A stretch of DNA of 64,000 nt. It comes from Christiangramia lutea (GTDB lineage Bacteria; Bacteroidota; Bacteroidia; Flavobacteriales; Flavobacteriaceae). Below, in pieces: positions 10,566 to 24,904 of this stretch. The notes under the pieces were generated by a model. That model did no database searches. It worked only from the letters and a program-made list of their open reading frames with translations, and was not told the DNA's origin. The first letter of the stretch is position 1. Every line of letters starts with the position of its first letter. The position numbers were made by a program, and so were the translations under genes. The stretch is from positions 124,001-188,000 of the forward strand of contig NZ_JAKVTV010000001.1 of assembly GCF_022489035.1 (NCBI RefSeq). The letters run 5' to 3'.

Positions 10566-11899
10566 TCACATTTTAATACCTTTTATCTCATTTCCATTAA
10601 TATTGATTATCATATCATTTCCATCAAATTCTATGCGGAGTTCACTGGTATAGGTTAACTTCAAAAAACCATCTGAAGCGGCAAGGAGTTCGTCGTCAAG
10701 AAAAAGTCGGCCATCAAATTCCTGTAATTTCAGCTGAGAACGGTCTATGCCCAAATGCTTTTTAAGTTCTGCTTTACTAAAAGAGTACCAGCCCAGATTC
10801 TGACTGTAGTTATCTGGTTTGGCAAGTTCAGCTTCAGCAGGTAAATTTACAGATTCTCCCTGTGTGACCAGGTAAAGATCTCTCAATAATTGCAGGATAG
10901 GCGTATTTCCCCAATTAGAAGTAATACCTATAAAACCACCAGTATCAGGTATCCGAATAATCACACTTTTAGTTCCATAACCACTACCCGCGGCAAAATA
11001 GATTTTCTCTTCCCCAAATGATTTGATGCTCCAGGCATAACCTTCGGCATCGGTTTCCCCGCTTTGAATATGTGGCTGAAACAGAAGTTCAGAATACTTT
11101 CCATCAAGAATGATCTCATTTTCTATTCCTCTGATATACCTGTACAGATCATTGGGATTAGAATATAAACCGCCTCCGGCATTGTCTCCCAAATGCTTAC
11201 TCCTTTGAGCAGATTCAAGACCTTTCGAACTAAGTCTATAGGGTACCGCCTGATTTTCAATAACATTCTGCCCGTCATAATAGCCAATATTTACCAGCTG
11301 TAAAGGTTCCAGAATATTCTCTTTAAGATATGCTTTATAACTTTGCCCGCTCACCTCTTCTATAATTGCGCCAAGGAGAATAAATCCTGGGTTAGAGTAT
11401 TCGTACCGCTTCCCAGGCTCGAACATCAAGTCAATTGTTTCAATCATTTTTAATTGCTGTGCAAATGTCTTTTCATGATGAGCCTGTATTCCAGACTCCC
11501 TGGGAAGCCCCGAGCTATGGGTTAATAAATGATGAATGGTCACTTTGTCTTTCCAACTGGCATTTAATTTGGCAGGTATAGAGCAATAGGCTTATGGAGC
11601 TCTAACCTAGAATCCTGAGCCAGCCTGAGGATCGCGGTTGCGGTGAAGGTCTTTGAAATAGAATTAATTGAAAATCTGGTTTCAGCAGTATTTGGAATGC
11701 CAAAACTTCGGTTCGCCAGTCCAAAGCTATCCTCGTAAATATCTTCATTATTCAAAACAACTTTAACATTGCCTGAAAACCCATAGATTTTCTGGTAAGA
11801 TTCGCACACCTGTTTAAACTGTTGAGTGGTAGAACCTGGCTGGGCAGAAAATTTTAAAAGGCATCCAAAAAACAGGGCAATGATTAACGTATGTTTCAT
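10566..11899 (-). pseudogene. serine hydrolase (beta-lactamase/class C-like), frameshifted
   Basis: Two adjacent frames make up one beta-lactamase-related serine hydrolase. The first (11564-11899) has a signal peptide (MKHTLIIALFFGCLLKFSAQ) and the catalytic SxxK (NSISKTF), then stops after LYLPN. The second (10566-11543, open upstream of its GTG) continues with TIHHLLTHSSGLPRE, the Tyr motif YSNPGF and the C-terminal domain. Restoring one base in the CCAAATTA run near 11564-11572 joins them in frame through LPKLNASWKDKVTIHH. The gene is therefore a recent single-base deletion, a phase-variable allele or a sequencing error. No part of the domain is otherwise missing. Confidence 0.85.
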
Positions 11900-12004
11900 A
11901 GTTTAAGGTATTAGAAGAAACCGAATTAAGGTCATTTCAAGGATGGTTGAAATTTGACTTTATTGAGATATTTTTCTATAAATATCAATTGTTGGAATTC
12001 GGAA

Positions 12005-13387
12005 TTATGATTTACCATCTATAATCTCATGAAGGCCTTCCAGAATTTCATCATTTTCATCCAAAAGATGATCTTTTATTTTGATATCAGGTATAACTCC
12101 TTCTGCTTTTCTACTGCCGTTCACCCGAACAATATATCCTTTTGAAATATTCACAACGATGCCGGTTTCGGGTAACGTATACTGAAAAATGGAAGCATAC
12201 AATGAAGGATATTCTCCGGTTTCCTCTCCTACAATAGTTCCGAAACCATAATCCTGGATCTGGGCCGCTGTAACTGCAGATTGGGAATAGGAATGCCGGT
12301 TTACCAAAACATAGACCTTTCCGAAAAATCTTCTACCTAAAGGCTGAGGTTGTTTTTCTTCAAAATCGTATGTGTAGATTTCACCGTTTTTATGATCAAG
12401 AATACTTTTCCAGAAGCCCTGGGTAGTATCATAACTTTTGCGGACATGATCTTTCAAGACCTCACTCGTCTTCAGGGAAAATTCTGAATTCCACTTAAAA
12501 TTTTTATCGGCTATATATGAAACCAGGTAATCACTAAGTGCATCATCCCCACCAGGATTGTTTCTTAGGTCGATAATAAGGTTCCTGCTTTTTATTTTAT
12601 TGATCTCGACAAATGAAGAATCTATAAATTTTTGAAACTTCTCTTCTTCACCGCTAAATCCGCCTGGGTTTAAATACGCGGTTCGGCCTAAAAATATTAG
12701 TTTTCTCTGCGAATTTAAAATATCCACCCTCCTGTACTCGAATTCCTCCATTGCCTTAATTGCCGGTAGCCTGTATATTCTGTTTTCTCCCTTAGAGCTT
12801 ATTTCCACTTCGAAAACGTCTTGTTGCCCGTAAACCTGCCAGTAATAACGCGGAAAAGCAAATAATTCAATCTTTGCATCCTTAAAATAAGGCCTTTCCG
12901 CAGAAACCTGGAGATACATTTTTCTTTTAATTCCGGAAATGGATTTACCATTAATGCTCAAAACTTCTGCACCATGAACAATGGAGTCTATCCCAGACCA
13001 GTTTTTTCTTACCAGGGCCTTATCGTCTTCAAAGGCGATCTCCAGGGGAAAGACCTGTCCCCCATTTTGCGCAAACTCTATATAGGATTGCGCCGGAAAA
13101 TCTATCCAGGTATGTCCATTATTTGCTGCAGAAGTGAGCTGCTGATAGAGATTTATTGTTTCCAGAAGGCTAAAACTATCTTTGACTACAGAAGATCTCA
13201 GCTTTTCATATTGGTTTGAAAATTCATCTTCAGAAGTGTAGGCATAAAGATTGTAATGCGCTTCCTTAAGCGTCTCATTCAAATTTTGAAGGTCATTTAA
13301 AACCTGTGCATTGGAAAAACATGGTTTCTGCCCGAACACCTGAAGACTTAAAAATAGGGCAAGAAATATAATGTATTTTGATCTCAT
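12005..13387 (-). CDS. S41 family peptidase (C-terminal processing protease-like)
   Basis: This 460-aa secreted protease has a signal peptide (MRSKYIIFLALFLSLQVFGQ). The S41 catalytic domain shows LIIDLRNNPGGDDALSDYL near residue 270, then VYVLVNRHSYSQSAVTAAQI near 345-364, where the second Ser of SYSQS is the likely nucleophile, and GEETGEYPS downstream. A PDZ-like segment around 125-160 is weak. It has no operon partner. Family members process tails of envelope proteins or act as tricorn-like peptidases; the substrate is not predictable here. It is the first chromosomal gene left of the integrated element. Confidence 0.85.
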   Translation of the reverse strand: MRSKYIIFLALFLSLQVFGQKPCFSNAQVLNDLQNLNETLKEAHYNLYAYTSEDEFSNQYEKLRSSVVKDSFSLLETINLYQQLTSAANNGHTWIDFPAQSYIEFAQNGGQVFPLEIAFEDDKALVRKNWSGIDSIVHGAEVLSINGKSISGIKRKMYLQVSAERPYFKDAKIELFAFPRYYWQVYGQQDVFEVEISSKGENRIYRLPAIKAMEEFEYRRVDILNSQRKLIFLGRTAYLNPGGFSGEEEKFQKFIDSSFVEINKIKSRNLIIDLRNNPGGDDALSDYLVSYIADKNFKWNSEFSLKTSEVLKDHVRKSYDTTQGFWKSILDHKNGEIYTYDFEEKQPQPLGRRFFGKVYVLVNRHSYSQSAVTAAQIQDYGFGTIVGEETGEYPSLYASIFQYTLPETGIVVNISKGYIVRVNGSRKAEGVIPDIKIKDHLLDENDEILEGLHEIIDGKS

Positions 13388-13566: not shown

Positions 13567-13582
13567 TTGTGACCTCGCCAGG
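13567..13582. repeat. att repeat, distal copy
   Basis: This is a 16-bp exact copy of the tRNA-Arg 3' end, without any other tRNA sequence next to it. It marks the left junction of the element. Confidence 0.9.
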
Positions 13583-13645
13583 GTCGTTACTTAAAAAGCT
13601 ATTATCCACACTTTTCGATAGTTCACAAACAATTTTAGTTACCAG

Positions 13646-13669
13646 AGGGATAATTATAGGGATAATTTT
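13646..13669. repeat. paired integrase arm-type repeats, left end
   Basis: Two AGGGATAAT copies start at 13646 and 13658, exactly 12 bp apart. The same pair with the same spacing occurs at 24707-24727 near the other end. The right part overlaps the dndB stop codon. Confidence 0.6.
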
Positions 13670-15018
13670 TAATCATTTGCTTCTAACTCTTTTAGAGCTA
13701 ACACCCTGTCATCGTCTAAGGTCTTTGGCGGCCAAATCGCCAAATGCATATCTAGATAAAAATATTTCTTACCCCTTTGATTAAACGAGTATCTATTAAT
13801 ATCACTAATGTTTAGATTCGATAGTTTAAATAAGAATTTACCATAAAAAATATCATCAGCGAAACCATAATCAATAGGATGTTTTATGGGAAATTCCATC
13901 AAGATATCATCTAGAATATTCATTAATGCATCATAACCCACTGAAGTTTGTAAAATATTCTTTGGTACCTTTTTTTCGAAATCCCAATATGACAACTCCT
14001 CATCATTAGTTTCTTTGAAGATAAATACCTTTCTAATTTCATAAAAATAGTAGAATAAAATATCTGAAATAAAAAAATCATTATCCGTAGCATAGTAATT
14101 CCTAAACGGTAAAAACTTTTTAGAACCCGATGATCTGTTTAGAAGTTTTTTTCTTTCCTTATATCTATCATTTTCTGATTCTCTTAAATTTTCTGATATA
14201 CGAGAAACTATAGACTTAACCATTGCGGCTTGAGTTAAAGGAGGATTTTCTCTTCCCCGATAACTTTCACCGTAAAGTTTAATTCGCTTATAAAAAGGTG
14301 ACTTACTATGTCCATTTAAACTTAAAACAACTTGAAGAGCAGTTTTCTGAGGTGTATCTGTGGTGTCTAAGCCAAATAAGCTATAAACTAAATTCTGGGA
14401 AACTCTTTTTTGTGTTCTGTTGATAGTAGAAAATATCATGGCCTGATATTCTAATGTTTTATCAATGAAAAAAGTAACTACCAATTCTATCTCTCTTAAA
14501 TCTTCTAAACGATTTTGATACTTTTTTAATTGAGCTTCCAAATCGTCGGAATGATTTTTTCTCAGAGTTCTAATTAATGTATTGATTTCTTCTTCTAATC
14601 TCGCAATAGCTACTTCAATACCACGAATTCTGTGTTGACCATCAATTATAGTAATAAAAATATTACCATCTTTTTTATCTAATTCCTGAAAAACTCTGGA
14701 TTCCAATTCAATTTCAACTTGACGATCATTATGAACTTCATAATTTTCTATAACCTCTCTTGGTATATGAAGCACAATATTGGTAGGAAACGTTGCGTCC
14801 GGATCATGGATTAAAAAATCCGCAATTTTTTGGACTCTCGAATTTTCAATATTTCTTTGAATTTCTCGATTATAAATCGGGTTTTCTTCTTCATCATATC
14901 CTACAATCAACCTTTTAGTATAACGAGTGAATTTAAAAATGTTCTCGATAGAATATACACCTATCAAAAAATCTTGTTTATTCTGCCTAACCGGAATTGC
15001 CTTTATATTCTCACTCAT
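13669..15018 (-). CDS. dndB: DndB-like DGQHR-domain protein of the phosphorothioation system
   Basis: The ATG at 15018 gives 449 aa; a TTG 9 bp upstream is also in frame but would sit inside the preceding gene. The signature DGQHR is at residues 126-130 (FITIIDGQHRIRGIEVA), with the typical IFSTINRTQKRVSQNLVYSLF stretch near 205-225. DndB is dispensable for phosphorothioation and acts as a transcriptional or modification-density regulator in characterised systems (family knowledge). The residue stretch EEEINTLIRTLRKNHSDDLEAQLKKYQNRLEDLRE is likely a coiled insertion. The start overlaps the stop of the 4-TM gene (TAATG). It is the last gene of the operon, whereas classical dnd operons start with dndB. 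Confidence 0.85.
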   Translation of the reverse strand: MSENIKAIPVRQNKQDFLIGVYSIENIFKFTRYTKRLIVGYDEEENPIYNREIQRNIENSRVQKIADFLIHDPDATFPTNIVLHIPREVIENYEVHNDRQVEIELESRVFQELDKKDGNIFITIIDGQHRIRGIEVAIARLEEEINTLIRTLRKNHSDDLEAQLKKYQNRLEDLREIELVVTFFIDKTLEYQAMIFSTINRTQKRVSQNLVYSLFGLDTTDTPQKTALQVVLSLNGHSKSPFYKRIKLYGESYRGRENPPLTQAAMVKSIVSRISENLRESENDRYKERKKLLNRSSGSKKFLPFRNYYATDNDFFISDILFYYFYEIRKVFIFKETNDEELSYWDFEKKVPKNILQTSVGYDALMNILDDILMEFPIKHPIDYGFADDIFYGKFLFKLSNLNISDINRYSFNQRGKKYFYLDMHLAIWPPKTLDDDRVLALKELEAND

Positions 15019-15581
15019 TAGTTCCAACCTTTACCATGTTTTTTTCCGCCATCTTTTCTTATGTAATCATCATAAGTTTCTAATTCGTAAGCCTTTTGAT
15101 ACATTTCATCCCTAATAATGAAAATATGAGAACCTACTCGAATAGAAATACCCAACACAATTAGACCTATAATTAAAATTAGAATTAATTGAAATAAATT
15201 ATCTGGCTTATAAAATGCAGGAAGAAAATATAATACTGTACCTATCAATATTAATGTGATCTTGTAATCACTTAACTTTTGAAACAAATTAATAGCATCT
15301 TCCTTTAAATTATCATTCTTATACTCTTTCTTTCTTATTAAATAGCTGGACATTGCAAAAAGAATATTTATTCCTAATAGAGATATACTCCCACCAATTA
15401 GATGATTTTTGAACTCTTGAGCATTTCTAAAAACCAATATGAAAAAAGCCGAAAGAATTATTATTCCAATAGGGAACCATAAATTGTGAAAGAACCATTT
15501 CTGAAATTCTGGATTATTTTTCTTCTTACATCGATCAATTATTTCCCTTTGTTTTTCAGTATACTTAAAATGTCCAAACAT
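15018..15581 (-). CDS. 4-TM membrane protein embedded in the dnd operon
   Basis: This 187-aa protein is not one I recognise. Hydrophobic segments lie near residues 35-51, 61-81, 107-124 and 129-149. A charged N-terminus (1-30, with KKKNNPEF) precedes them, a basic cytoplasmic linker (RKKEYKNDN) lies between the second and third, and a soluble tail runs from 155 to 187 and ends KKHGKGWN. It starts 5 bp after the dndE stop and overlaps the dndB start by one base, so it is translated with the modification genes. No catalytic motif is visible. A membrane effector or localisation factor for the dnd system is a reasonable hypothesis, not a demonstrated role. Confidence 0.8.
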   Translation of the reverse strand: MFGHFKYTEKQREIIDRCKKKNNPEFQKWFFHNLWFPIGIIILSAFFILVFRNAQEFKNHLIGGSISLLGINILFAMSSYLIRKKEYKNDNLKEDAINLFQKLSDYKITLILIGTVLYFLPAFYKPDNLFQLILILIIGLIVLGISIRVGSHIFIIRDEMYQKAYELETYDDYIRKDGGKKHGKGWN

Positions 15582-15586
15582 TACTT

Positions 15587-17140
15587 TTACTTAGTATTAA
15601 AAATTTTTCCAAATTCGAATTCATCAATATTGGAAATAGATTGTCTAGGTTTTATCTCTTCCATAGATCGATTAACCTTGGTTCTCTGTTTTTCTCCTGC
15701 ACCTAAAAATTTGCTTATAGCTTTCCAGTTATTTCCATCTTTTATAGACATTAGAAAGGCTGACTGGCACATAGAAGAAAAATCAAATTCAGGTTGATTG
15801 AACTCTTCAATTCCTTGAGAAACAAGCATAACAGCCACACCTTGTGACCTAATTTCTCTTAAAAGTTTTTCAAGAATTTCCTGAGATTTTTTCTCCTTAA
15901 ATACATTATGAGCTTCATCAATTAGCAGAACATATCTAAGGGCGCTATGATCTTTCTCTATAGCAACTTTATCCATATTCATGAAAGTGTTATAGAGATA
16001 ATATATTACAAGAAAAGTAGCAGTAAATCTAACCTCTTTACTTAATTCACCTGAAAGACTGAAATAATAATTATTATTGATAAAATCTCCCTTCTTCTCA
16101 TTATCGAATAATTCAATTTCGGTAAGACCTATTAATATTTGAGTAAGACTTGAAGGCTTATCTCCAGCTATCTCATATACATTCTCCAGAATTTCTTTGA
16201 TCGTTGGATAAGAACCATCCTTATGGTTCTCAAATGAGGATATAGTAGCATCCTTTAAATTTTGTTTCTGAACGTTTCCAAGATTAGCATATTTTGAAAT
16301 TATATCAACAAAACGTCCAATACCTACAATCTTATTCTTTTCATTAACATTATCAATAAAGGACAAGGGATTAACAGGAAAAGATTTTTGAGGTGTATCA
16401 ATTAATTCTGCATTAGTAACATTAAAAAAACTTTTAAAGTCATCATTGTCTTTATCACTCTCATTTAAACCCTTAAAATCCAGGTAAAGAAAATTAACTT
16501 TACCCTTACTTTCCTGAACAATTCTTTCTAAAATTTTTCTGGAAAAGTAAGATTTTCCGGTTCCAGAATTACCGGCGACGGCAATATGGCAATTATTATA
16601 TTTAGAAGTGTTATTAGGTGTGAAGTATATTTTTTCTGCTTCTTCGGTTTCTCCTACGAGTATTTTTATTGGATCAGCATAACCTTCTTTATCCTCAATG
16701 TAGAAATTATTATTTCTGGAAAACTCGAATCGATCATCCACATTTTCCATTTCTTCAATACCCAATTCTATATTATCGAGTAAAAACTCAAAACCCGAGA
16801 AATTTGAATTCTCTTCAAAAAAAGTATTAATCAATTCTAGTCCATGATCAAGATGCATTTTGATATACTTCCTGATATTAGAATCATCCTTATGTAGAGA
16901 ATACTTTTGACATATTAAAGCTATATAATAATCTCGATAATTACCGAATAGAGTTTGATCTTTATATTCTTTTCCACCGAATGGTTTCAGATCATTTTCT
17001 AAACTTAACTCATGAGATTTACTTATGGAATAAGCTATTGCTATTCTGGATATATGATTTTCAGTACCTAAACTCAATCGATTTGTTAATACCTTAACGA
17101 ATGGTTCAGTTTCTGGCGCAGTACTTATATTAAATTGCAT
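15587..17140 (-). CDS. dndE: DndE fused to a HerA-like ATPase
   Basis: Residues 1 to about 110 resemble DndE, a small DNA-binding component of phosphorothioation (NISTAPETEPFVKVLTNRL, HISRIAIAYSIS). From about residue 150 a P-loop ATPase of the HerA/FtsK type follows: Walker A AGNSGTGKS at 189-197, Walker B LLIDEAH at 405-411, and VMLVSQG near 438-444 as a sensor strand. At 517 aa it is far longer than stand-alone DndE (about 110-130 aa). From memory, a comparable integrated form (DndEi) with helicase activity has been described in the flavobacterium Riemerella. Its ATG lies inside dndD with an 11-bp overlap. It would couple ATP-driven DNA translocation to nicking and sulfur insertion. Confidence 0.85.
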   Translation of the reverse strand: MQFNISTAPETEPFVKVLTNRLSLGTENHISRIAIAYSISKSHELSLENDLKPFGGKEYKDQTLFGNYRDYYIALICQKYSLHKDDSNIRKYIKMHLDHGLELINTFFEENSNFSGFEFLLDNIELGIEEMENVDDRFEFSRNNNFYIEDKEGYADPIKILVGETEEAEKIYFTPNNTSKYNNCHIAVAGNSGTGKSYFSRKILERIVQESKGKVNFLYLDFKGLNESDKDNDDFKSFFNVTNAELIDTPQKSFPVNPLSFIDNVNEKNKIVGIGRFVDIISKYANLGNVQKQNLKDATISSFENHKDGSYPTIKEILENVYEIAGDKPSSLTQILIGLTEIELFDNEKKGDFINNNYYFSLSGELSKEVRFTATFLVIYYLYNTFMNMDKVAIEKDHSALRYVLLIDEAHNVFKEKKSQEILEKLLREIRSQGVAVMLVSQGIEEFNQPEFDFSSMCQSAFLMSIKDGNNWKAISKFLGAGEKQRTKVNRSMEEIKPRQSISNIDEFEFGKIFNTK

Positions 17141-19226
17141 CTACTTTTTCTTTTTGAAAAACTTCGAATAGTTCTGAAGCTGGATCTACATTAAAGAAGG
17201 AACTATTTTCGTTACTATAATTCTGAATTAGATATGCCTTATTCACTTTAGGTAGTAAAATATTATACTCTTCCTCCGACATTTCTTTTTTCAGGAGAGG
17301 AAAAATTATGACTTGATCTGAAACCTCAGGATAAAAATGCTTAACAATACTTGAAGAGTGATCAACATCAAATTTCTGCATTGGAGAGTCTATAAATACT
17401 GGAAAATCAATATTCGACTCTTCCACTAGTCCTTTAAGTAATGCGGTAGCGTAGAGCTGTTGCTCTCCTTTAGAAAGAGAATCTTTATTTATTTCTTTTC
17501 CTCTAGAATCAATTAAGTTTATCTCAATATTTTCTCCTAAAATTTCAACGCTAACGTCATCAATAAAACTTTTCTTATGAAGTAATAAATCAAGCCCTTC
17601 TTTTATTCTTTTAGCTAAAGATTGCTTTTTCTCTAATTTGAATTCAGCAATAAAAGTTTTTAAATATTGTATAGACTTCTCTACCTCCTGGCTTATCTTT
17701 TGCTTATCTTTCGAGACTTCTAATTTGTCGGAAATTCTTTTTATTTCCTTCGTAGCATTATTTATGATATTTCTATTCTCCTCAATATCGCCAGAAAGAG
17801 CACCCATTGTTCGCACCTTCTCATCGTATTCTTTTTCTAATTGAGCTTTTTTCTCTCGATCGGCTTTAACCAGAGCATCTTCTGCTTTTTCCTCTGCTAA
17901 TTTGATTCTCTTAGAAATATCGTTTAATTCATTCTTGGCGGTTAAAAACTGGGAATTAATTCTATTAAAGGTTTCTTTAAAGGAAAGTTTAATATTATTC
18001 ACAAATGCATTTAACTCTGCTTTTTCAGACTCGGAGAAATTATGAATTATTTCTAATTCTTCATTCTGATTAGAATCATGAGATAAATGCTTTTTAAGCA
18101 ACTTTTTTAAATTTTCCACATAGAACCCTTGCACTTTATGATTAAATACTAAATCAGCAGGCTTAGGCACCGATATAAGGTCATTGATAATATCGTCTGT
18201 TAATCCATCTATTTTTTCTGAGTCAAATTTCTGAAGGATAATTTCTCGCTCCTTTATAACCTGCTCCAAAACTTTTGTCAATAAATTGCCAGCGATAGCA
18301 AATGGTATAAACTCGTAATGCGTTTTTAAATCGCTATTCAAGGTTGCAACATTGGATTCTAAAGTCTCTTTACGAGATTTTAATTCATTTAACTCCTCGA
18401 CTGTAATTAAACTACCTTTACTGATAAGTTTTTCTTGCAGCTGGTTAATATCAAATTTTAAAGCAAGCCTATCCTCTTCTAGTTCCGAAATTTCATCCTT
18501 TATCTCGATGATTTTCTCTTCAGCATTTTCTGTCTCAACCTTTAACTCTCTTAGTCTTCTTTTTTCTTCTGCATTAGCAGTATCAGATTTCAACTTCGTT
18601 AAATAGTTCCCGAGATCATCTTTTAGATTTTCATACTGCTTAATTCCTAAAACTTCAGAATATGCTTTACTTAGTTTTAATCTTTCCTCTGCGGTATGAA
18701 TTTCAGCTAAAGAGACTATTTTTTCCGCATCAAAGAAGAAAAATTTAGCAATCTCTTTTGGCATTATAAAATCACGGATAAAATGCTCTTCAGTTACATC
18801 TTTAACTAATTCACTTTTGTGATTATCGATTAAAACTTCAATTTCTTCATCCTTATTACCTTCAGTATAATAGGTTCTTGTAACCTTTAACTCATTGCAA
18901 GTTACATCTGGGATATTTACATTACCAAAAGTAATAGAAACGGAAAATTTTGTTTCTCCTTCATGGGCTGCTAACCTATTTAAACTATTCCTTATATATT
19001 GACGATAATTTCCGCTACTTTCTATCTCTTTTTTGTAAATATCATCAACGTCGCTCATTTGCCTTCCGTAAAGACACCATACTAACGACATTAGAAAAGT
19101 GGTTTTACCAAAACCGTTTTTACCACTAATTACAATGATATTATTTTCTTCATTTACTGAAAGGTCAATTGAATTTTCACCCTTGTAAATTCTGAAATTA
19201 TTGAGCTCGATACTTTTAATTATCAT
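17130..19226 (-). CDS. dndD: DndD, SMC/Rad50-like ATPase of DNA phosphorothioation
   Basis: This 698-aa ABC-type ATPase is split by a long coiled coil. Walker A GKNGFGKT is at residues 35-42, an FFFFDAEKI motif lies near 163-171, and the C-terminal lobe has the signature LSKGEQQLYATALLKGL near 600-616 with Walker B FPVFIDSPMQKFD shortly after. The coiled coil runs roughly from 200 to 560. I see only two cysteines, both outside the hook region, so there is no Rad50-type zinc hook. In characterised systems DndD hydrolyses ATP to provide DNA structural change or nicking. Its ATG overlaps the dndC stop (TAATG), and its end overlaps dndE. Confidence 0.92.
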   Translation of the reverse strand: MIIKSIELNNFRIYKGENSIDLSVNEENNIIVISGKNGFGKTTFLMSLVWCLYGRQMSDVDDIYKKEIESSGNYRQYIRNSLNRLAAHEGETKFSVSITFGNVNIPDVTCNELKVTRTYYTEGNKDEEIEVLIDNHKSELVKDVTEEHFIRDFIMPKEIAKFFFFDAEKIVSLAEIHTAEERLKLSKAYSEVLGIKQYENLKDDLGNYLTKLKSDTANAEEKRRLRELKVETENAEEKIIEIKDEISELEEDRLALKFDINQLQEKLISKGSLITVEELNELKSRKETLESNVATLNSDLKTHYEFIPFAIAGNLLTKVLEQVIKEREIILQKFDSEKIDGLTDDIINDLISVPKPADLVFNHKVQGFYVENLKKLLKKHLSHDSNQNEELEIIHNFSESEKAELNAFVNNIKLSFKETFNRINSQFLTAKNELNDISKRIKLAEEKAEDALVKADREKKAQLEKEYDEKVRTMGALSGDIEENRNIINNATKEIKRISDKLEVSKDKQKISQEVEKSIQYLKTFIAEFKLEKKQSLAKRIKEGLDLLLHKKSFIDDVSVEILGENIEINLIDSRGKEINKDSLSKGEQQLYATALLKGLVEESNIDFPVFIDSPMQKFDVDHSSSIVKHFYPEVSDQVIIFPLLKKEMSEEEYNILLPKVNKAYLIQNYSNENSSFFNVDPASELFEVFQKEKVDAI

Positions 19227-20551
19227 TAGGCTGAAATATGTTTTTTATAAATGTTCTCAATATCCTCTATAAGACCTCTTCTCCTCATCATAATAACTTT
19301 TGATTTTTCGAGTTTTATTAGATCTTGAATAAGTTTAAATTGAGACTTGTCCCCACCACAAGATGATAACAACAATTCTTCTTCTTTTTGAATTGCGTGA
19401 TTATGCTCCTTCATATCGAGAGTTTTATTAAAGACTTTATTGTAAATATCGGAAACTTTATAATCAAAAAACAAATCCCTATACCAAGTAACTTGAATTG
19501 CAATTAACTCTTGATTATTAATGAGTTCAATCTTATGGCCCAAATCATTAATTTCTTTCTGCGCCAAAAAGATTCTTTCTAATATTTCTGCTCTATGTTT
19601 CAATTTTACAACACCACCATTCGGAGTTGCGGCTTTATTACCGTTACGCCTAAAATCTGATCTATTTTCAGGTTTATTCCTTTCATCTTGAATCCAATTT
19701 CTTAGATCTCTCAATGGAATTAACCAATCATTACCGTTCTCAATTTGGGCTGAAATAGATTTATCTTTATTTACTACTGTACAAGTCCAACATCCAAATC
19801 TACTTTGTCCGCAAGATTTATGAGATTTATTTGCTACCATTGTGGGACATTCATAATCATCCGCACTAGCATCAGAATAAATGCTAAATAACTCCGAATT
19901 ATCTGCACCCCAAGGAGATTGAAAAGAATTGATAATGTACCATACTTCTTCCAGCTCTAGATTTTTAATAGGAGAATATACAAATACATTTTTTTGCAAA
20001 GGATGCTTCGTAAGCCTTTTACCCTTAACTTCATGTTTCTTAATAGATTTTGCTCTACTAGCACTTTCACTTTTTCTCGTTCCGACTAATATTATTGCCT
20101 CATCTTCTGGTTTTAAAGTTTCTTCAATAAATCTTGAAGTAGGCTTAATTTTCAATCTTTCGGTACACCACCTAAATGAATTGTTCGGCGCAGGATAACC
20201 CTTTCCTATTAAATTTACCCAAAACGAATCCTCTAGTCTAGGTTTTGTAGTCCTAACCTTTACGGGTAAAGAATGCTTTAATGCCGCTTTCTCTATTTTC
20301 TCTAAAACCCCATAAACATAATTTGTAATTATGGGATTTTCAACTAGTGTGTCATTGCAAACAACCCACACTTCTCTCTTTAAAAATTCTTCTCCAAAAT
20401 GTTTTTTAACCTTTAGTAGATTCAGCCAGACTAAGGTTAACAATACCGTTGAATCTTTTCCTCCACTAAAGCCAATAATCCAAGGACGATTATTATCATC
20501 TATTAAGTATTGGTCAACCAATTCGTTGACAATATGGTCAGCTTTTTTCAT
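19226..20551 (-). CDS. dndC: DndC, sulfurtransferase of DNA phosphorothioation
   Basis: The ATG at 20551 gives 441 aa; a GTG six codons upstream (20569) is an alternative. The PP-loop SGGKDS sits near residues 29-34. Cysteines likely to bind a 4Fe-4S cluster appear as SFRWCTERLK and in the cluster DYECP...SCGQSRFGCWTC, followed by the DndC-specific stretch NGNDWLIPLRDLRNWIQDERNK. The enzyme belongs to the PAPS-reductase superfamily and moves sulfur from a cysteine desulfurase to the DNA backbone. No dndA is present in the operon, so a host IscS/SufS would have to supply sulfur. It is the first gene of the operon after a 354-bp gene-free gap. Confidence 0.93.
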   Translation of the reverse strand: MKKADHIVNELVDQYLIDDNNRPWIIGFSGGKDSTVLLTLVWLNLLKVKKHFGEEFLKREVWVVCNDTLVENPIITNYVYGVLEKIEKAALKHSLPVKVRTTKPRLEDSFWVNLIGKGYPAPNNSFRWCTERLKIKPTSRFIEETLKPEDEAIILVGTRKSESASRAKSIKKHEVKGKRLTKHPLQKNVFVYSPIKNLELEEVWYIINSFQSPWGADNSELFSIYSDASADDYECPTMVANKSHKSCGQSRFGCWTCTVVNKDKSISAQIENGNDWLIPLRDLRNWIQDERNKPENRSDFRRNGNKAATPNGGVVKLKHRAEILERIFLAQKEINDLGHKIELINNQELIAIQVTWYRDLFFDYKVSDIYNKVFNKTLDMKEHNHAIQKEEELLLSSCGGDKSQFKLIQDLIKLEKSKVIMMRRRGLIEDIENIYKKHISA

Positions 20552-20569
20552 ATCCTGTAAAGAAAGCAC

Positions 20570-20905
20570 TTATACAATACACTTTCAAAAAGAATTAAAT
20601 CAAAAATGAAGTTTTTTTTAACAATTTAATTCACGATTAATAGCTCATGTTCTATGAACTTATTAAATTAAAATTAAGATGTAATAAACCTTATTTAAGT
20701 TATTACCAGCAATAGGTGTTTCAAAAGTTTTTAAAGTCATTAGAAAGTGATTAAAATGTGGAAGAGAATACAAGTAACCAGTTTTCAAACCAGTACGTGT
20801 ATCCCCGTGTTTAAACCTATTCTAATTTTTACTTTATCCCGTGTGAAATTCGCCTTTAAGTATATATATATCTATAGTACAATAATCGTAGTAGTCTTCT
20901 CCTTA
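20570..20905. promoter_or_regulatory. gene-free AT-rich region upstream of the dnd operon
   Basis: This region must contain the promoter and 5' leader of the minus-strand dnd operon. I find no clean TAnnTTTG box. Copies of CGTGT-type words occur at 20795-20802 (ACGTGTAT), 20807-20813 (GTGTTTA) and near 20850, and the first two words recur at 22272-22285. A short frame on the plus strand here has no coding character. Confidence 0.4.
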
Positions 20906-21892
20906 TTAAGTAGAATAATTTTTAATAAGTAGGCTATCCTTTTTATTACTAACTGCAATTAAAACATTATTATAAAAATGCCATTTATCACCCTTCGTAA
21001 AATGTTCGTGTAACTCTTGAATATAATTAACCATTTCACTTTTACGATTCTTAGAAAAATATTGAAATGTATACAGAGCACGGTCGACACCTACTTTTTT
21101 AGTAAAAAGAAAATTATGATAGTTTTTAGTCTCAAGTGGATTTAGTTCATTTCTTTCGACACGTTTCGAATCAGAAAAAAGGTCGCATATTTTTGCTTTA
21201 TAAAAGCTAGATTTCCAATCTTCAATTAAATCGTTCCAATTATCCTTAAAGCTTTTAAAGGTTCGAATCTCTTTTTTCTTCCGATAACCTGATTTAGCAT
21301 TTATTTTAATTTCAAATCTTAATATAAAAAGATGCTTTCTCAATCTATCTGCTACTTTTCCTGAAATTATACGCCTATCCTTCATCTCAAGCAATTTATC
21401 ATAAAAAATCAATCGATACTTTGCGCCTTTAAAATAAACAGAAGAAGCACTCCATCTTTCAATTGTTAATTCTGGGTAGCTTGTCAAGCAGGGGATAAAT
21501 CTGTCGTATGCACTTGGCAATTTAATATTACCTCCAATTTCGATGTAATTCAATTCTAATTCGTAAATAAATTTCGAATCTACACCTAATCTTTTTGAAA
21601 TCAATTCCACACACTCGCAATAAGCTGAATATGACAAATCATTAACTGCATTTTTGCCTCCATATTTCCATTTTCTCAAATTCCCTTCAAGGAATATTTT
21701 ACATCCATTTGGAGTTTGTTTAATTTTTACCTCTAAAATTTCTGTTAGATTATGATTATAGATTTCTATAATCCAAACCTTACCTTCTTTATTTTTATTT
21801 CCATATATCAATTTTACGTTACAGTATGGATCTAAATAAAATTCTGGTATTTCCCCTTTTGATTTAAAATAGTCCATCATAGCCTTTCTCAT
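20906..21892 (-). CDS. putative replication-initiation protein (phage/plasmid gpII/X-like)
   Basis: This 328-aa protein shows the layout of phage and plasmid replication proteins of the gene II/X type: an aromatic-rich N-terminal domain (EGNLRKWKYGGKNAVNDLSYSAY), a centre with SSVYFKGAKYRLIFYDKLLEMKD near residues 148-170, and LFILRFEIKINAKSG near 187-201. I cannot point to a decisive HUH motif, so the assignment is by overall pattern. It overlaps the HTH gene by 29 bp and is co-transcribed with it. In small integrated elements, an integrase-HTH-Rep order is common and would allow replication after excision. Confidence 0.5.
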   Translation of the reverse strand: MRKAMMDYFKSKGEIPEFYLDPYCNVKLIYGNKNKEGKVWIIEIYNHNLTEILEVKIKQTPNGCKIFLEGNLRKWKYGGKNAVNDLSYSAYCECVELISKRLGVDSKFIYELELNYIEIGGNIKLPSAYDRFIPCLTSYPELTIERWSASSVYFKGAKYRLIFYDKLLEMKDRRIISGKVADRLRKHLFILRFEIKINAKSGYRKKKEIRTFKSFKDNWNDLIEDWKSSFYKAKICDLFSDSKRVERNELNPLETKNYHNFLFTKKVGVDRALYTFQYFSKNRKSEMVNYIQELHEHFTKGDKWHFYNNVLIAVSNKKDSLLIKNYST

Positions 21893-22241
21893 TTAGATAA
21901 ATTTCCAATTCTTCTCTTTTTACTCTGATAGATGAGCCCGGACTTCTTTGCATAGTCCTTAGACCGTCATTAGCCCAACGATCAAAAGTTTTACGAGAAA
22001 TTTTTAACTGGCGCTCAATCTCTTTTGGCGTTAGAATATCATCCTTTCTTTTAATTTCATAAAGTTTCGTTTTGAATGAATCCCTCAAACTTTCGATTTC
22101 TCTTTTGAGTTCTTGATCAAATTTCTCTTTATATTTCTCTCTAAATTCTTTGTTTTTTCTTTTATCCTCATTTGATCGATTCAGAATAAAAATTTTAAAA
22201 TTTTTGATACTCTCTTTAGAATTGTAATCTAATTTTTTCAT
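21864..22241 (-). CDS. excisionase-like helix-turn-helix protein
   Basis: This 125-aa protein has a long charged helical N-terminus (residues about 1-65, Lys/Glu-rich, likely coiled coil) and a MerR/HTH_17-type DNA-binding domain at the C-terminus: LTPKEIERQLKISRKTFDRW near 72-91, then a wing with RSPGSSIRVKREELEIYL. Such domains occur in Xis excisionases and element regulators. It overlaps the Rep-like gene, suggesting they are coregulated. An excisionase or a Rep activator role is inferred from the context. Confidence 0.7.
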   Translation of the reverse strand: MKKLDYNSKESIKNFKIFILNRSNEDKRKNKEFREKYKEKFDQELKREIESLRDSFKTKLYEIKRKDDILTPKEIERQLKISRKTFDRWANDGLRTMQRSPGSSIRVKREELEIYLNEKGYDGLF

Positions 22242-22325
22242 CTTTTTTTGTATTAAGTTTATATCTACCTAATACACGTAAACACTTTTATTGTACAGCA
22301 GAATCCTGTTAAAAAAAAGTTAAAA

Positions 22326-22348
22326 CAAAAAACCGCCCAATCGGCGGT
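22326..22348 (-). terminator. intrinsic terminator after the secreted cargo gene
   Basis: The stem ACCGCC/GGCGGT with a 5-nt loop is followed on the minus strand by TTTTTTGTTTT. It separates the 252-aa gene from the HTH-Rep unit. Confidence 0.75.
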
Positions 22349-22416
22349 CTCTTTAATCTAAAAATTGAAGGTTTGGTATGTTTTTTATTCTATCTCTGCT
22401 ATAATTATTGATCTTC

Positions 22417-23175
22417 TTAAAATCTATCTATTCGTGGCACATTAAATTCTAAAAGATGACGGTAATCAGATTCTTCAAGTTTAATTTCATCTAAAACATC
22501 GACAAAGTCAAATCTTTTTGACGTTCCCTCAATATCAATCATAGGACTAACCATTTCAGGAATAGAAAAATTAATTTTTATCTCTTGACCATCCTCATTG
22601 ACTAAAATCGCTTTACCTTCATAATCATTACAGGTTTTAGCTATATAACTCTTCTCCTTATACCTTATTCTTAACAAACATTCATCTGAATCTATTTTTC
22701 CAGCTATCAAAAATTGAAGTTCACTATTTTCATTTTCCAGTACCCATCCTTGAATATATCTAAATTTATTTTCAGATATCTTCTCAGTTTTTTCTTCGGG
22801 AATTTCAAAATAATTTTCGATTATATAATTTGACCAATATTTAGCTTGATCAACATTTCTGGTTATGGCATAAAGATTTGGCTCACAGTTATCAATGTAA
22901 ATACACAAATCTTCAGCAATTCCACTTAAGATCTTATCTCTGACGTTCCTATTATTTGGATTAGTAAATTCTGGAATAATCTTCTTAAACTCATTCTCTG
23001 TACTAATATTTAGCCACTCAGCAATCTTTTCAGTCATACCTCCATATCGATAGAATTCATCAATAAGGTCGAAGGAGAATGCTACAACCTCCTCTCTATT
23101 TAAGCCATTTTCATAAGATTGTCCAAAACCCTGATAAAAATTTAAACAAATAAGTAATATTACAAGTTTTTTCAT
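22417..23175 (-). CDS. secreted protein of unknown function (element cargo)
   Basis: This 252-aa protein has a signal peptide (MKKLVILLICLNFYQGFGQ) and an acidic mature part. I recognise no domain. The middle (EKISENKFRYIQGWVLENENSELQFLIAGKIDSDECLL) looks beta-rich, and there are several Cys (LCIYIDNCEP, DECLLRI, AKTCND). It has its own terminator and lies between the integrase and the HTH gene, so it is accessory to the element. A periplasmic location is predicted; function is open. Confidence 0.7.
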   Translation of the reverse strand: MKKLVILLICLNFYQGFGQSYENGLNREEVVAFSFDLIDEFYRYGGMTEKIAEWLNISTENEFKKIIPEFTNPNNRNVRDKILSGIAEDLCIYIDNCEPNLYAITRNVDQAKYWSNYIIENYFEIPEEKTEKISENKFRYIQGWVLENENSELQFLIAGKIDSDECLLRIRYKEKSYIAKTCNDYEGKAILVNEDGQEIKINFSIPEMVSPMIDIEGTSKRFDFVDVLDEIKLEESDYRHLLEFNVPRIDRF

Positions 23176-23196
23176 TTTATAAATGTTTAAAAAAAA

Positions 23197-23327
23197 GCGT
23201 GGAACTGAATCCTACGCCCTTCAAGTACCGCCAAGCACTCATCCGACAAATAGGAACAGCCCACGCCGTAGCGTGAGCGTTCAACTATTACATCTGTCGG
23301 AATTCTAAAATTGGCGGTTTTGAAGGG
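23197..23327. repeat. long nested hairpin between integrase and cargo gene
   Basis: Four nested perfect arms are spaced across 111 bp: CCCTTCAA (23217-23224) with TTGAAGGG (23320-23327), CCGCCAA (23228-23234) with TTGGCGG (23311-23317), CCGACA (23243-23248) with TGTCGG (23295-23300), and ACGC (23263-23266) with GCGT (23271-23274). A second hairpin (GCGTGGA/TCCTACGC, 23197-23217) abuts it. The composition is richer in GC than the surroundings. It could be a structured RNA, a replication or transfer origin, or a dispersed palindromic element. Confidence 0.65.
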
Positions 23328-23394
23328 ACAAGTAAAAGCTAACGCTTCTTAATATGTTCTTTATACATTATTTCATAAAGCTAAAATAGATAAT

Positions 23395-24540
23395 TTATTC
23401 AGTAAAGCTTACGCTCATTACAGACTTCTCTAAAGTATCATCATCACTATTCAAATACCTTCCAGTCATATCCATACTCCCATGCCCCATAAGTTTCATA
23501 ATATGAGAAGCTGGAACATTATTATTAGCCAATAATGATCCAAAGGTATGACGCCCTGTATGAAAGCTTACTCTTTTATTTATTTTAGACCATCTTGCCA
23601 AAAGTTTCAAATCTCTGTTAACCGCAACATTAGATCGATAAGGAAAAAGCGTTTTACGATAAGAACTTTTGTATTTCATTATCAAAGCAACCACTTCACT
23701 TTTAAGGAAAATCTTTATTTTCTTACTGGTTTTTTTCATCCTTAATTCAATATAATTATCTTTAAATTGTTCTTTATTAATTGAAATTACATCGGAATAT
23801 CTTAACCCTGTATAGCAACTAAATAGAAATAAATCCCTAGTTAAATTTAATCCTGGCTCCATAGAACCTATATTAAGATCGAGCTTCCTTAAACGTGAAA
23901 TTTCCTTTACATCCAAATATTCCTCTCTAACATTTTCCTTTGGCTTAGGAATAAGTTTACAGTAATTTTTGCTTAGCAAGTCTAAACGAATAAATTCCTC
24001 TAAAGTGCATATTAGGGTTTTTCTTCTAGTAGCTATTCCACTTGGGCCAATTCCTTCATCCTTTAAGTACTCGAAAAAATCTGAAAAGAATGCATAATCC
24101 AAATCACTAACACTTAGATTAGCTTTATATTTCTTTAGTTGCTTACCTAATTACTTATAATGATATTGAGTTCCCGGTTTAATAGTTCTAAATTTCTTTT
24201 TACAGAACTTTTCAAAATGAACATAAAAATCCTTTGTACCGCTTCCATTATAGAAATTTTTAATCATCTCTAGACTAATATCCTTATCCTGTAATTCACA
24301 GTCGGTTATAAAGTCTTTAAAAGATTGTTCTCTCTTTTCTAAGTTACGTTTAAGCTTACTGAGCTTCATCCCCTTTGGATAAGATTTTTTAGAATCCCAA
24401 TCAGTTGGCTTCAAAGATTTTCCTACTGGCAATCTCAACAAATCAGAATTTAGAATAATTTGGTAATACAAGGGGCATGTACCATCTTTCTTCGTTTTGT
24501 CCTTTCTCAAAATCGTTTTTACAGAATAAGAATATTTCAT
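23395..24540 (-). pseudogene. tyrosine recombinase (integrase) interrupted by an in-frame stop
   Basis: A single 381-codon integrase frame is broken by one TAA at 24151-24153. The upstream part (129 aa) has the arm-DNA-binding domain of Bacteroidota integrases (VKTILRKDKTKKDGTCPLYY) and the start of the core-binding domain. The downstream part continues in the same frame and holds the catalytic set: Arg (CYTGLRYSD), Lys (KKTSKKIKIF), HTGRH, and GHGSMDMTGRYL with the nucleophile Tyr. Only one codon is lost, so the mutation is recent or a sequencing error. A TTG within the distal part could start a fragment without arm binding. The gene lies next to the tRNA end, as usual for site-specific integrases. 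Confidence 0.88.
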
Positions 24541-24706
24541 AGTATAAATTTTACGTTCATCTTACTTATACCTCGGAACGTTTTTTTTCTTCACACTAAA
24601 GTTCTACGAATATTTACAAAATTCAAAGCAATCCCAGTGGCAATAAGGGTTTTGGGGAAATGTTAAAGTTTAAAATTATAAGAATTTTCCCGGTTTTGGG
24701 AATCGA

Positions 24707-24727
24707 AGGGATAACTATAGGGATAAT
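24707..24727. repeat. paired integrase arm-type repeats, right end
   Basis: AGGGATAAC at 24707 and AGGGATAAT at 24719 have the same 12-bp spacing as the pair at 13646-13669. The pair lies about 100 bp inside the right att copy. Confidence 0.6.
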
Positions 24728-24730
24728 AAT

Positions 24731-24760
24731 TTTGACGTAATTTGACGTAATTTGGGTAAA
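24731..24760. repeat. tandem decamer repeat
   Basis: TTTGACGTAA occurs twice in tandem (24731-24750), followed by a degenerate third unit TTTGGGTAAA. It sits between the arm-type repeats and the tRNA-side att, a usual place for integrase or excisionase binding. Confidence 0.55.
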
Positions 24761-24764
24761 CTAG

Positions 24765-24796
24765 AAAACAAAAAACCCCGCTTTTAGCGAGGTTTT
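24765..24796 (-). terminator. element-supplied terminator for tRNA-Arg
   Basis: The stem AAAACCCCGC/GCGAGGTTTT with one mismatch is followed on the minus strand by TTTTTTGTTTT. It lies about 35 bp beyond the tRNA 3' end, inside the element, and replaces the original terminator now at 13523-13562. Confidence 0.75.
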
Positions 24797-24827
24797 ATAG
24801 ACTTGAATAGTCAAATTTAGTATTTCG

Positions 24828-24843
24828 TTGTGACCTCGCCAGG
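24828..24843. repeat. att repeat, tRNA-proximal copy
   Basis: This 16-bp sequence forms the last 13 nt of tRNA-Arg plus 3 nt beyond it. It is identical to 13567-13582. Confidence 0.9.
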
Positions 24844-24904
24844 ATTCAAACCTGGAACCTTCTGAGCCGTAATCAGATGCGCTATTCAGTTGCGCCACGA
24901 GGCC
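24831..24904 (-). tRNA. tRNA-Arg (anticodon ACG)
   Basis: The 74-nt sequence folds as a cloverleaf: acceptor GGCCTCG/CGAGGTC with one G-U pair and discriminator A, D-stem GCGC/GCGC, anticodon stem TCTGA/TCAGA with loop TTACGGC (ACG), and T-stem CCAGG/CCTGG. It is intact despite serving as the integration site. A perfect -7 box lies upstream at 24940-24948. Confidence 0.95.

Follow-up and report, generated by a model that had tools for sequence, protein, structure and literature searches.

DNA phosphorothioation (PT) systems in which HerA/FtsK domains are fused to DndE beside a DndD-related ATPase have been described as clade 3 (Rakesh, Aravind and Krishnan 2024, PMC10853773), and the main text of this account presents marking modules as commonly separate from DndFGH. 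A locus of this kind is found on an island of Christiangramia lutea (assembly GCF_022489035.1, contig NZ_JAKVTV010000001.1, positions 124,001 to 188,000), a stretch of 64,000 nucleotides that is termed the window below and to which all positions refer unless a locus handle (such as L034) precedes them. The island core fits the clade 3 description in having the same fusion and the same DndD-type neighbour. In contrast to the pertinent passages of that main text, which place nucleases around the core and contain neither a cassette of membrane protein and DGQHR protein nor an exchange slot, the core is followed here by such a two-gene cassette.

We lean moderately towards reading the island as a PT-based defence unit that combines a conserved marking core with an exchangeable effector cassette, the latter composed of a split SspE-like sensor and a membrane protein. 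As judged from sequence comparison, the core is intact, the pair is present, exchange takes place at the stop codon of the fusion, and the pair also occurs beside other modification systems. A preliminary description of the same DNA had called the system an orphan. This label is probably wrong and the marking system probably has a defence partner, because the pair occupies a slot that holds nuclease-like or other cassettes in related islands and because it adjoins other DNA-modification systems. By the same slot position and neighbours, the alternative raised there, that the embedded membrane gene acts as the restriction gene, is the better reading of the two.

The DndE::HerA fusion and the decoupling from DndFGH are already in print, while no swap slot and no membrane partner of DGQHR or PT systems turned up in searches of open-licence papers. 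Among these, the pertinent passages of PMC3226654 count a DGQHR protein with the Dnd genes of Serratia and mention no membrane partner; "dndI" as used in PMC4373003 denotes islands rather than a gene; the strains treated in the relevant part of PMC5608340 are Prevotella without Dnd genes; and PMC11931770 was set aside, its pertinent part not being tied to the DndE::HerA fusion.

Marking core

The five genes from dndC onward all lie on the minus strand, with open reading frame (ORF) junctions of −1, −11, +5 and −10 nucleotides:

19226..20569, minus strand: dndC, sulfurtransferase (TIGR03183, 408 bits, cut-off 290, E 4e-122)
17130..19226, minus strand: dndD, ABC ATPase (TIGR03185, 276 bits, cut-off 246)
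15587..17140, minus strand: dndE fused to a HerA/FtsK translocase domain, 517 residues
15018..15581, minus strand: first cassette gene, small membrane protein with three hydropathy segments, proposed effector
13669..15027, minus strand: second cassette gene, DGQHR protein, proposed sensor NTPase (ORF from TTG, with an ATG nine bases in)

The stop and start codons of dndC and dndD overlap as TAATG, and the same holds for the junction of the membrane and DGQHR genes if the latter starts at the ATG and not at the TTG nine bases earlier. The one-strand arrangement with TAATG or short overlaps was thus correctly recognized in the preliminary description, as were dndC, dndD and the dndE–ATPase fusion, which are borne out by models and conserved columns. 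Its fourth gene, dndB, has to be renamed (see below).

Counting as conserved those columns that are at least 95% conserved among 55 (DndC), 49 (DndD) and 61 (fusion) sequences, the window retains 131 of 131 in DndC, including SGGKDST and seven conserved cysteines, 169 of 170 in DndD and 148 of 148 in the fusion. Since nearly all strongly conserved columns are kept, the core gives no sign of decay. Residues 9–109 of the fusion correspond to DndE (PF08870, 70 bits, cut-off 25, E 2e-19), the stricter DndE model TIGR03184 being missed with 41 bits versus a cut-off of 72, and residues 138–484 match the PADLOC model of the DndH C-terminus ATPase (E 1.6e-28). The top PADLOC name for DndD is PbeC (589 bits), the CxC ATPase of PMC10853773; this identity was rejected because the translation lacks the CxC zinc hook.

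The absence of dndA and DndFGH is ordinary for marking modules. According to the main text of PMC10853773, dndA is found in only 32% of the taxa with a marking module, and three cysteine desulfurase homologues are encoded in the C. lutea genome; similarly, the complete set of eight dnd genes is present in 7% of the recovered taxa. DndFGH and PbeABCD are alternative partners of the same marking enzymes, and the membrane and DGQHR pair can adjoin either. The preliminary description had allowed for a restriction gene elsewhere in the genome (31 contigs, 100% complete). For two of the classical partners, a search there yielded nothing suitable: the DndH profile recovered only the ATPase of the fusion and one weak HerA match (E 0.004), and SspE gave no match, with 6 of 14 controls responding in either case. 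The DndF model dnd_assoc_3 likewise found no match, but its control remained silent, and no search for DndG or PbeA was made.

Exchange slot behind the fusion

In a scan of genome contigs, 66 loci with the fusion were surveyed, four of which (L055, L074, L081 and L084) have no visible slot. The cassette type of the window, a membrane protein followed by a DGQHR protein, is the most frequent content with 20 of the 66 loci (L078 shows the first gene only). A GIY-YIG-like gene, assigned by motifs and sub-threshold Pfam scores, takes the place of the membrane gene before DGQHR in 11 loci. Ten further loci harbor a ParB-like gene, named after PADLOC PD-Lambda-5_A matches and reading, together with a second gene that matches no family (L038 shows the first gene only), and seven a GHKL ATPase with a PF20553 protein, some of them with an Mrr nuclease gene. 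RhuM is found in two loci, a DGQHR gene in first position with an uncharacterized second gene in one (L051), and other content or nothing recognizable in 11. The membrane gene of L071 was missed by the ORF caller and identified by reading the gap.

Among 13 compared pairs of loci, 11 differ in slot type, and in 10 of these 11 the DNA similarity of the cores stops at most 7 nucleotides from the stop codon of the fusion; in the remaining one it stops 34 nucleotides before it. L041 and L082, which have the same slot type with unrelated membrane genes, lose similarity 1 nucleotide past the stop, and L063 and L064 share their slot. The sharpest pair is L062, a metagenome bin, versus L063, with 5,855 bp at 99.5% identity, a slot without similarity and then 92.6%. 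The same pattern is displayed by the isolates L064 and L067 (91.5%, similarity ending 1 nucleotide past the stop) as well as by two Kordia loci (L029 and L030, the latter uncultured), whose slots differ between a core of 87.4% and a downstream flank of 93.6% identity. An exception is the pair L053 and L056, both of the GIY type, in which similarity is lost 181 nucleotides before the stop.

On a quick tree of the fusion, which does not include L042 as no fusion ORF was called there, the four cassette types over 48 labelled rows require 21 changes, compared with 23.9 (standard deviation 1.5) in shuffles, of which 122 out of 2000 reached 21 or fewer. Since the observed number is close to the shuffled one, the cassette types are distributed almost at random over the core tree and bear little trace of core ancestry.

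A separate observation concerns the position of dndD. In some loci, the place expected for dndD is taken by a member of one sequence cluster, which is either flanked by dndC and the fusion or lies immediately ahead of the fusion (L031:8440-9402, L034:8440-9402, L072:7962-8924, L083:8922-9884, L038:4076-5047 and L092:1-768). The L034 member, the sole one scanned, matches HNH_2 (E 3e-13), and in L031, L034 and L072 a C-terminal part of dndD remains. The L034 protein as a query against the C. lutea genome, run without a positive control, gave no match. The N-terminus of the cluster protein looks like a sulfur-binding domain. Such loci may have changed from marking DNA to cleaving DNA that carries the mark.

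The DGQHR protein and its membrane partner

The window protein shares the DGQHR motif with DndB and passes the broad Pfam model of that name (PF14072, 46 bits, cut-off 29), a model that also covers a GIY-partner protein. It fails, however, the DndB equivalog TIGR03233 by a wide margin (23 bits, cut-off 328) and passes the generic DGQHR domain TIGR03187 (126 bits, cut-off 58.85). In a tree built from 55 DGQHR-type proteins, a separate branch unites three DndB references with one protein encoded next to dndC, and the window protein is placed elsewhere. The 11 proteins with a GIY-YIG-like partner constitute a second branch, and 33 of the 34 rows with a membrane partner, including the window, fall into one starred set, with L111 outside. 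Membrane versus GIY partner requires a single change on this tree. This is a quick tree with several long branches flagged, in which the DndB reference of L171 is named by position and 17 of the 19 complete membrane-type loci are represented (L064 and L065 were omitted as near copies). Moreover, an annotated dndB coexists with the membrane and DGQHR pair in the proteobacterial L173, L176 and L177, as does a dndB named by position in L171. Hence, the DGQHR gene of the window is probably not dndB.

The second-best NCBIfam model is DGQHR_dnd_1 (TIGR04172), and proteobacterial proteins so annotated also follow a membrane gene. The window protein is far below the cut-off of this model (114 bits versus 450), and none of seven scanned membrane partners passes an NCBIfam cut-off. 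With SspE and DndI, which are PT-sensing NTPases joined to an HNH nickase, the window protein shares QR, DGQ[HQ]R and FxxxN motifs. Its structure model aligns best, although weakly, to SspE and less well to DndI (VIA-align, as a second look at Foldseek candidates), which weakly suggests an SspE-like fold. Foldseek itself returned no significant row for the model, sulfiredoxin and ParB being among the weak ones, and a PDB sequence search with the DGQHR profile gave a single row (E 0.22). Unlike SspE and DndI, the protein has no HNH family in Pfam or NCBIfam, and the role of effector is proposed for a protein encoded separately, a membrane protein here or a GIY-YIG-like one in other loci.

For this membrane protein, no Pfam family is over cut-off; HlyIII was rejected at 18.6 bits (cut-off 26.2), as was a known fold, the best Foldseek E value of 0.67 being meaningless. 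Its AlphaFold2 model consists of four long helices (predicted local distance difference test 71, predicted template modelling score 0.53). By Kyte–Doolittle counts (window 19, threshold 1.6), which are used for transmembrane segments throughout instead of a trained predictor, the membrane proteins of the fusion loci have 2–5 hydropathy segments, mostly 3 or 4, while only 5 of 174 other ORFs of 135–235 residues in these loci reach three or more. The protein evolves fast: window and L028 are 28% identical in it compared with 82% in the fusion and 68% in the DGQHR protein. A C-terminal HGxxW tail is nevertheless kept in the window, L028, L032, L035 and L071 despite very low conservation outside it, and some other membrane proteins (L033, L063, L088 and L090) carry an LGG-like C-terminal motif.

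Occurrence of the pair beside other modification systems

A plasmid search with the window DGQHR protein identified 16 records. Four (H3, H5, H6 and H9) were left out of neighbourhood inspection; in all 12 that were fetched, the directly upstream gene on the same strand encodes a protein of 157–228 residues with 2–4 hydropathy segments. In a genome search, 7 of 395 genomes matched, namely that of C. lutea, the fusion locus L110 (identical in sequence to L051) and five more, each of which has a membrane-type gene upstream. The membrane protein goes under the name "hypothetical protein" in the 11 annotated plasmid records that were fetched, and E. coli annotation assigns it to the "accessory gene regulator B family", which makes the pair easy to overlook. 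Altogether, 14 of the 17 loci inspected outside the fusion set have DNA-modification or PT-linked genes within the fetched stretch:

L106 (PF02086, E 2e-49), L165 (with a BglII-type endonuclease) and L166: D12/Dam methylases
L176, L177 and E. coli L171 (annotated twin L179): DndCDE with dptG or dptH
L173: DndBCDE
L111, L172 and L178: Pbe-type genes, a label read from gene order and annotation
L168, L174 and L175: FtsK with DndD or a similar ATPase
L167: MT-A70 and a BglII-type gene some 2–3 kb away, a looser link
L107, L108 and L109: no modification gene, but a Schlafen/AlbA_2 gene, a HerA-type gene and nothing recognized, respectively

The pair region is matched by 123 of 5426 complete E. coli genomes, 109 of them over at least 80% of its length. 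In E. coli 55989, where the pair is linked to dptH, the annotation splits its DGQHR gene in two (L179:3065-4744).

Not every DGQHR protein has a membrane partner. Among 24 genomes with any DGQHR protein (G627 left out), a membrane gene stands upstream in six, a gene that is GIY-like by eye in three (L158–L160; L159, the only one of these scanned, has no Pfam match) and neither in 14. In the Lactococcus plasmid L170, the sole one inspected from a listing of 49 records beyond the first 16, the upstream gene encodes 264 residues with two segments, and the phage record L169, one inspected out of three, has no membrane gene upstream. Long DGQHR proteins of 717–780 residues (L150:5409-8518, L152:1331-4491 and L163:1989-5385) have no membrane gene and are encoded immediately after genes that look, by reading, like D12 methylases, possibly another arrangement of modification and sensor.

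Proposed function and alternatives

A split SspE-like arrangement appears to be the simplest mechanism. DndC, DndD and DndE::HerA, with sulfur from a housekeeping cysteine desulfurase, would introduce phosphorothioates into host DNA, with translocation of the complex along DNA probably driven by the HerA/FtsK domain. The membrane and DGQHR genes would then constitute a response cassette. Therein, the DGQHR protein could act as an NTPase sensor of the ParB superfamily that resembles the N-terminal domain of SspE and DndI and reads the modification state of DNA, with the small membrane protein as an effector under its control in a toxic or protective role. Most likely, the membrane protein would disturb the inner membrane in response to foreign or improperly marked DNA, leading to growth arrest or abortive infection.

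Several points weigh against this defence reading. The nearest relative is without the membrane and DGQHR cassette, and 11 of the 62 loci with a visible slot contain none of the named cassettes. Furthermore, in the pertinent passages of PMC4507180 and PMC12839542, DndB and DpdB, respectively, are DGQHR relatives with a regulatory or marking role. The structural support for the sensor is also weak.

The first two of these points equally speak for the strongest rival, which we nonetheless regard as rather unlikely: a true orphan, whose marks would serve regulation, redox protection or island maintenance, with the DGQHR protein as a DndB-like repressor and the membrane protein as a bystander. An orphan or regulatory role of the core is possible because of the cassette-free nearest relative, and it is in line with the searches of the genome that found no DndH or SspE, the DndF result with its silent control and the decoupling reported as common in the main text of PMC10853773. 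It is at odds with the DGQHR gene failing the DndB equivalog and grouping apart, and with the separate dndB beside it in L173, L176 and L177. Likewise, a swap against nuclease-like cassettes at the same stop codon is not expected of a regulator or a bystander.

Less probable still is a toxin–antitoxin-like addiction pair, which would ensure retention of the island and of other mobile DNA independently of modification. Two adjacent or overlapping genes on plasmids and an island would suit this idea, and toxins are often small membrane proteins. Such a pair would, however, hardly account for the modification or PT-linked genes in the 14 of 17 loci listed above or for the exchange with nuclease-like modules. 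Finally, it is improbable that the membrane protein anchors the HerA/FtsK motor as in a split FtsK, with marking or scanning at the membrane where DNA enters and DGQHR as ATPase partner: FtsK has an anchor of four transmembrane segments, the fusion contains a HerA/FtsK domain, the membrane protein model has four helices and a HerA-type gene precedes the pair in L108 as well, yet the same core also has cassettes without a membrane gene, and the pair stands beside Dam-type methylases in L165 and L166, where the annotation of the fetched stretch shows no HerA/FtsK gene.

Returning to the defence unit, the two genes of the pair move together, behave as a cassette that can be exchanged and turn up next to several DNA-marking systems. 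A broader version, which we put forward tentatively and hold a little less probable than its opposite, sees in it a portable two-gene immune effector that reads modification and is recruited, interchangeably with nuclease cassettes, by PT cores of several kinds and Dam-type methylation. If so, restriction would proceed without DNA cutting, wrong or missing marks being answered at the membrane, and effector exchange would have its hot spot at the dndE::HerA stop codon. Numerous PT loci have no known restriction partner and are interpreted as orphan or epigenetic. Should the slot behind the core serve effectors, a partner could be predicted for many such loci, and a response that acts at the membrane upon the modification state of DNA could be tested with a four- or five-gene construct.

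Borders and further genes of the island

The island itself, positions 13567–24843, is real, as the preliminary description had concluded. The 16-bp direct repeat TTGTGACCTCGCCAGG is present in exact copies at both ends and extends no further, the right copy overlaps the 3′ end of a tRNA gene, and the guanine plus cytosine content is 30.5% versus 38.2% for the remaining window. In three genomes of the same genus (L122–L124), no island genes follow the same tRNA-Arg within 2.8–3.0 kb. Read on the minus strand from the tRNA, the order is integrase frame, structured non-coding block, 252-residue protein, helix–turn–helix (HTH) protein and 328-residue protein, then dndC, dndD, dndE::HerA, the membrane protein gene and the DGQHR gene. 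The features beyond core and cassette are:

13567..13582, no strand: left att direct repeat copy, 16 bp, exact match to 24828-24843
24828..24843, no strand: right att repeat copy, overlapping the tRNA-Arg 3′ end
24830..24904, minus strand: tRNA-Arg(acg), integration target (Rfam tRNA, E 1.1e-10)
23395..24540, minus strand: tyrosine integrase frame, broken at codon 130 by a single in-frame stop (PF17293 and PF00589 halves)
23190..23396, no strand: structured non-coding block, 90.6% identical to L027:5342-5553
22417..23175, minus strand: 252-residue protein, putative cargo (no family over cut-off in Pfam, NCBIfam and PADLOC)
21864..22241, minus strand: HTH/excisionase-like protein (PF12728 over cut-off)
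20906..21892, minus strand: 328-residue protein, candidate element replication protein (no family in Pfam, NCBIfam and PADLOC)

The in-frame stop in the integrase, which had not been mentioned before, may have immobilized this island copy or may be a sequencing error. The structured block is conserved between the window and L027 islands although their cores are only 78% identical. The minus strand of 23185-23400 folds into a long nested hairpin (−72.6 kcal/mol, z −6.3), and no Rfam family was found for 23190-23396; the block is a candidate origin or regulatory RNA of the element. The HTH protein scores 24.7 bits against the excisionase model TIGR01764, below the cut-off of 28.8. The 328-residue protein has a relative of 31% identity on the L027 element, and it may resemble phage pII/X proteins. 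On the far side of the island, ORFs at 10566-13387 (beta-lactamase-like and S41-peptidase-like by reading) lie between it and the next gene conserved in L122; as they are absent in L122, the tRNA-Arg flank varies beyond the island.

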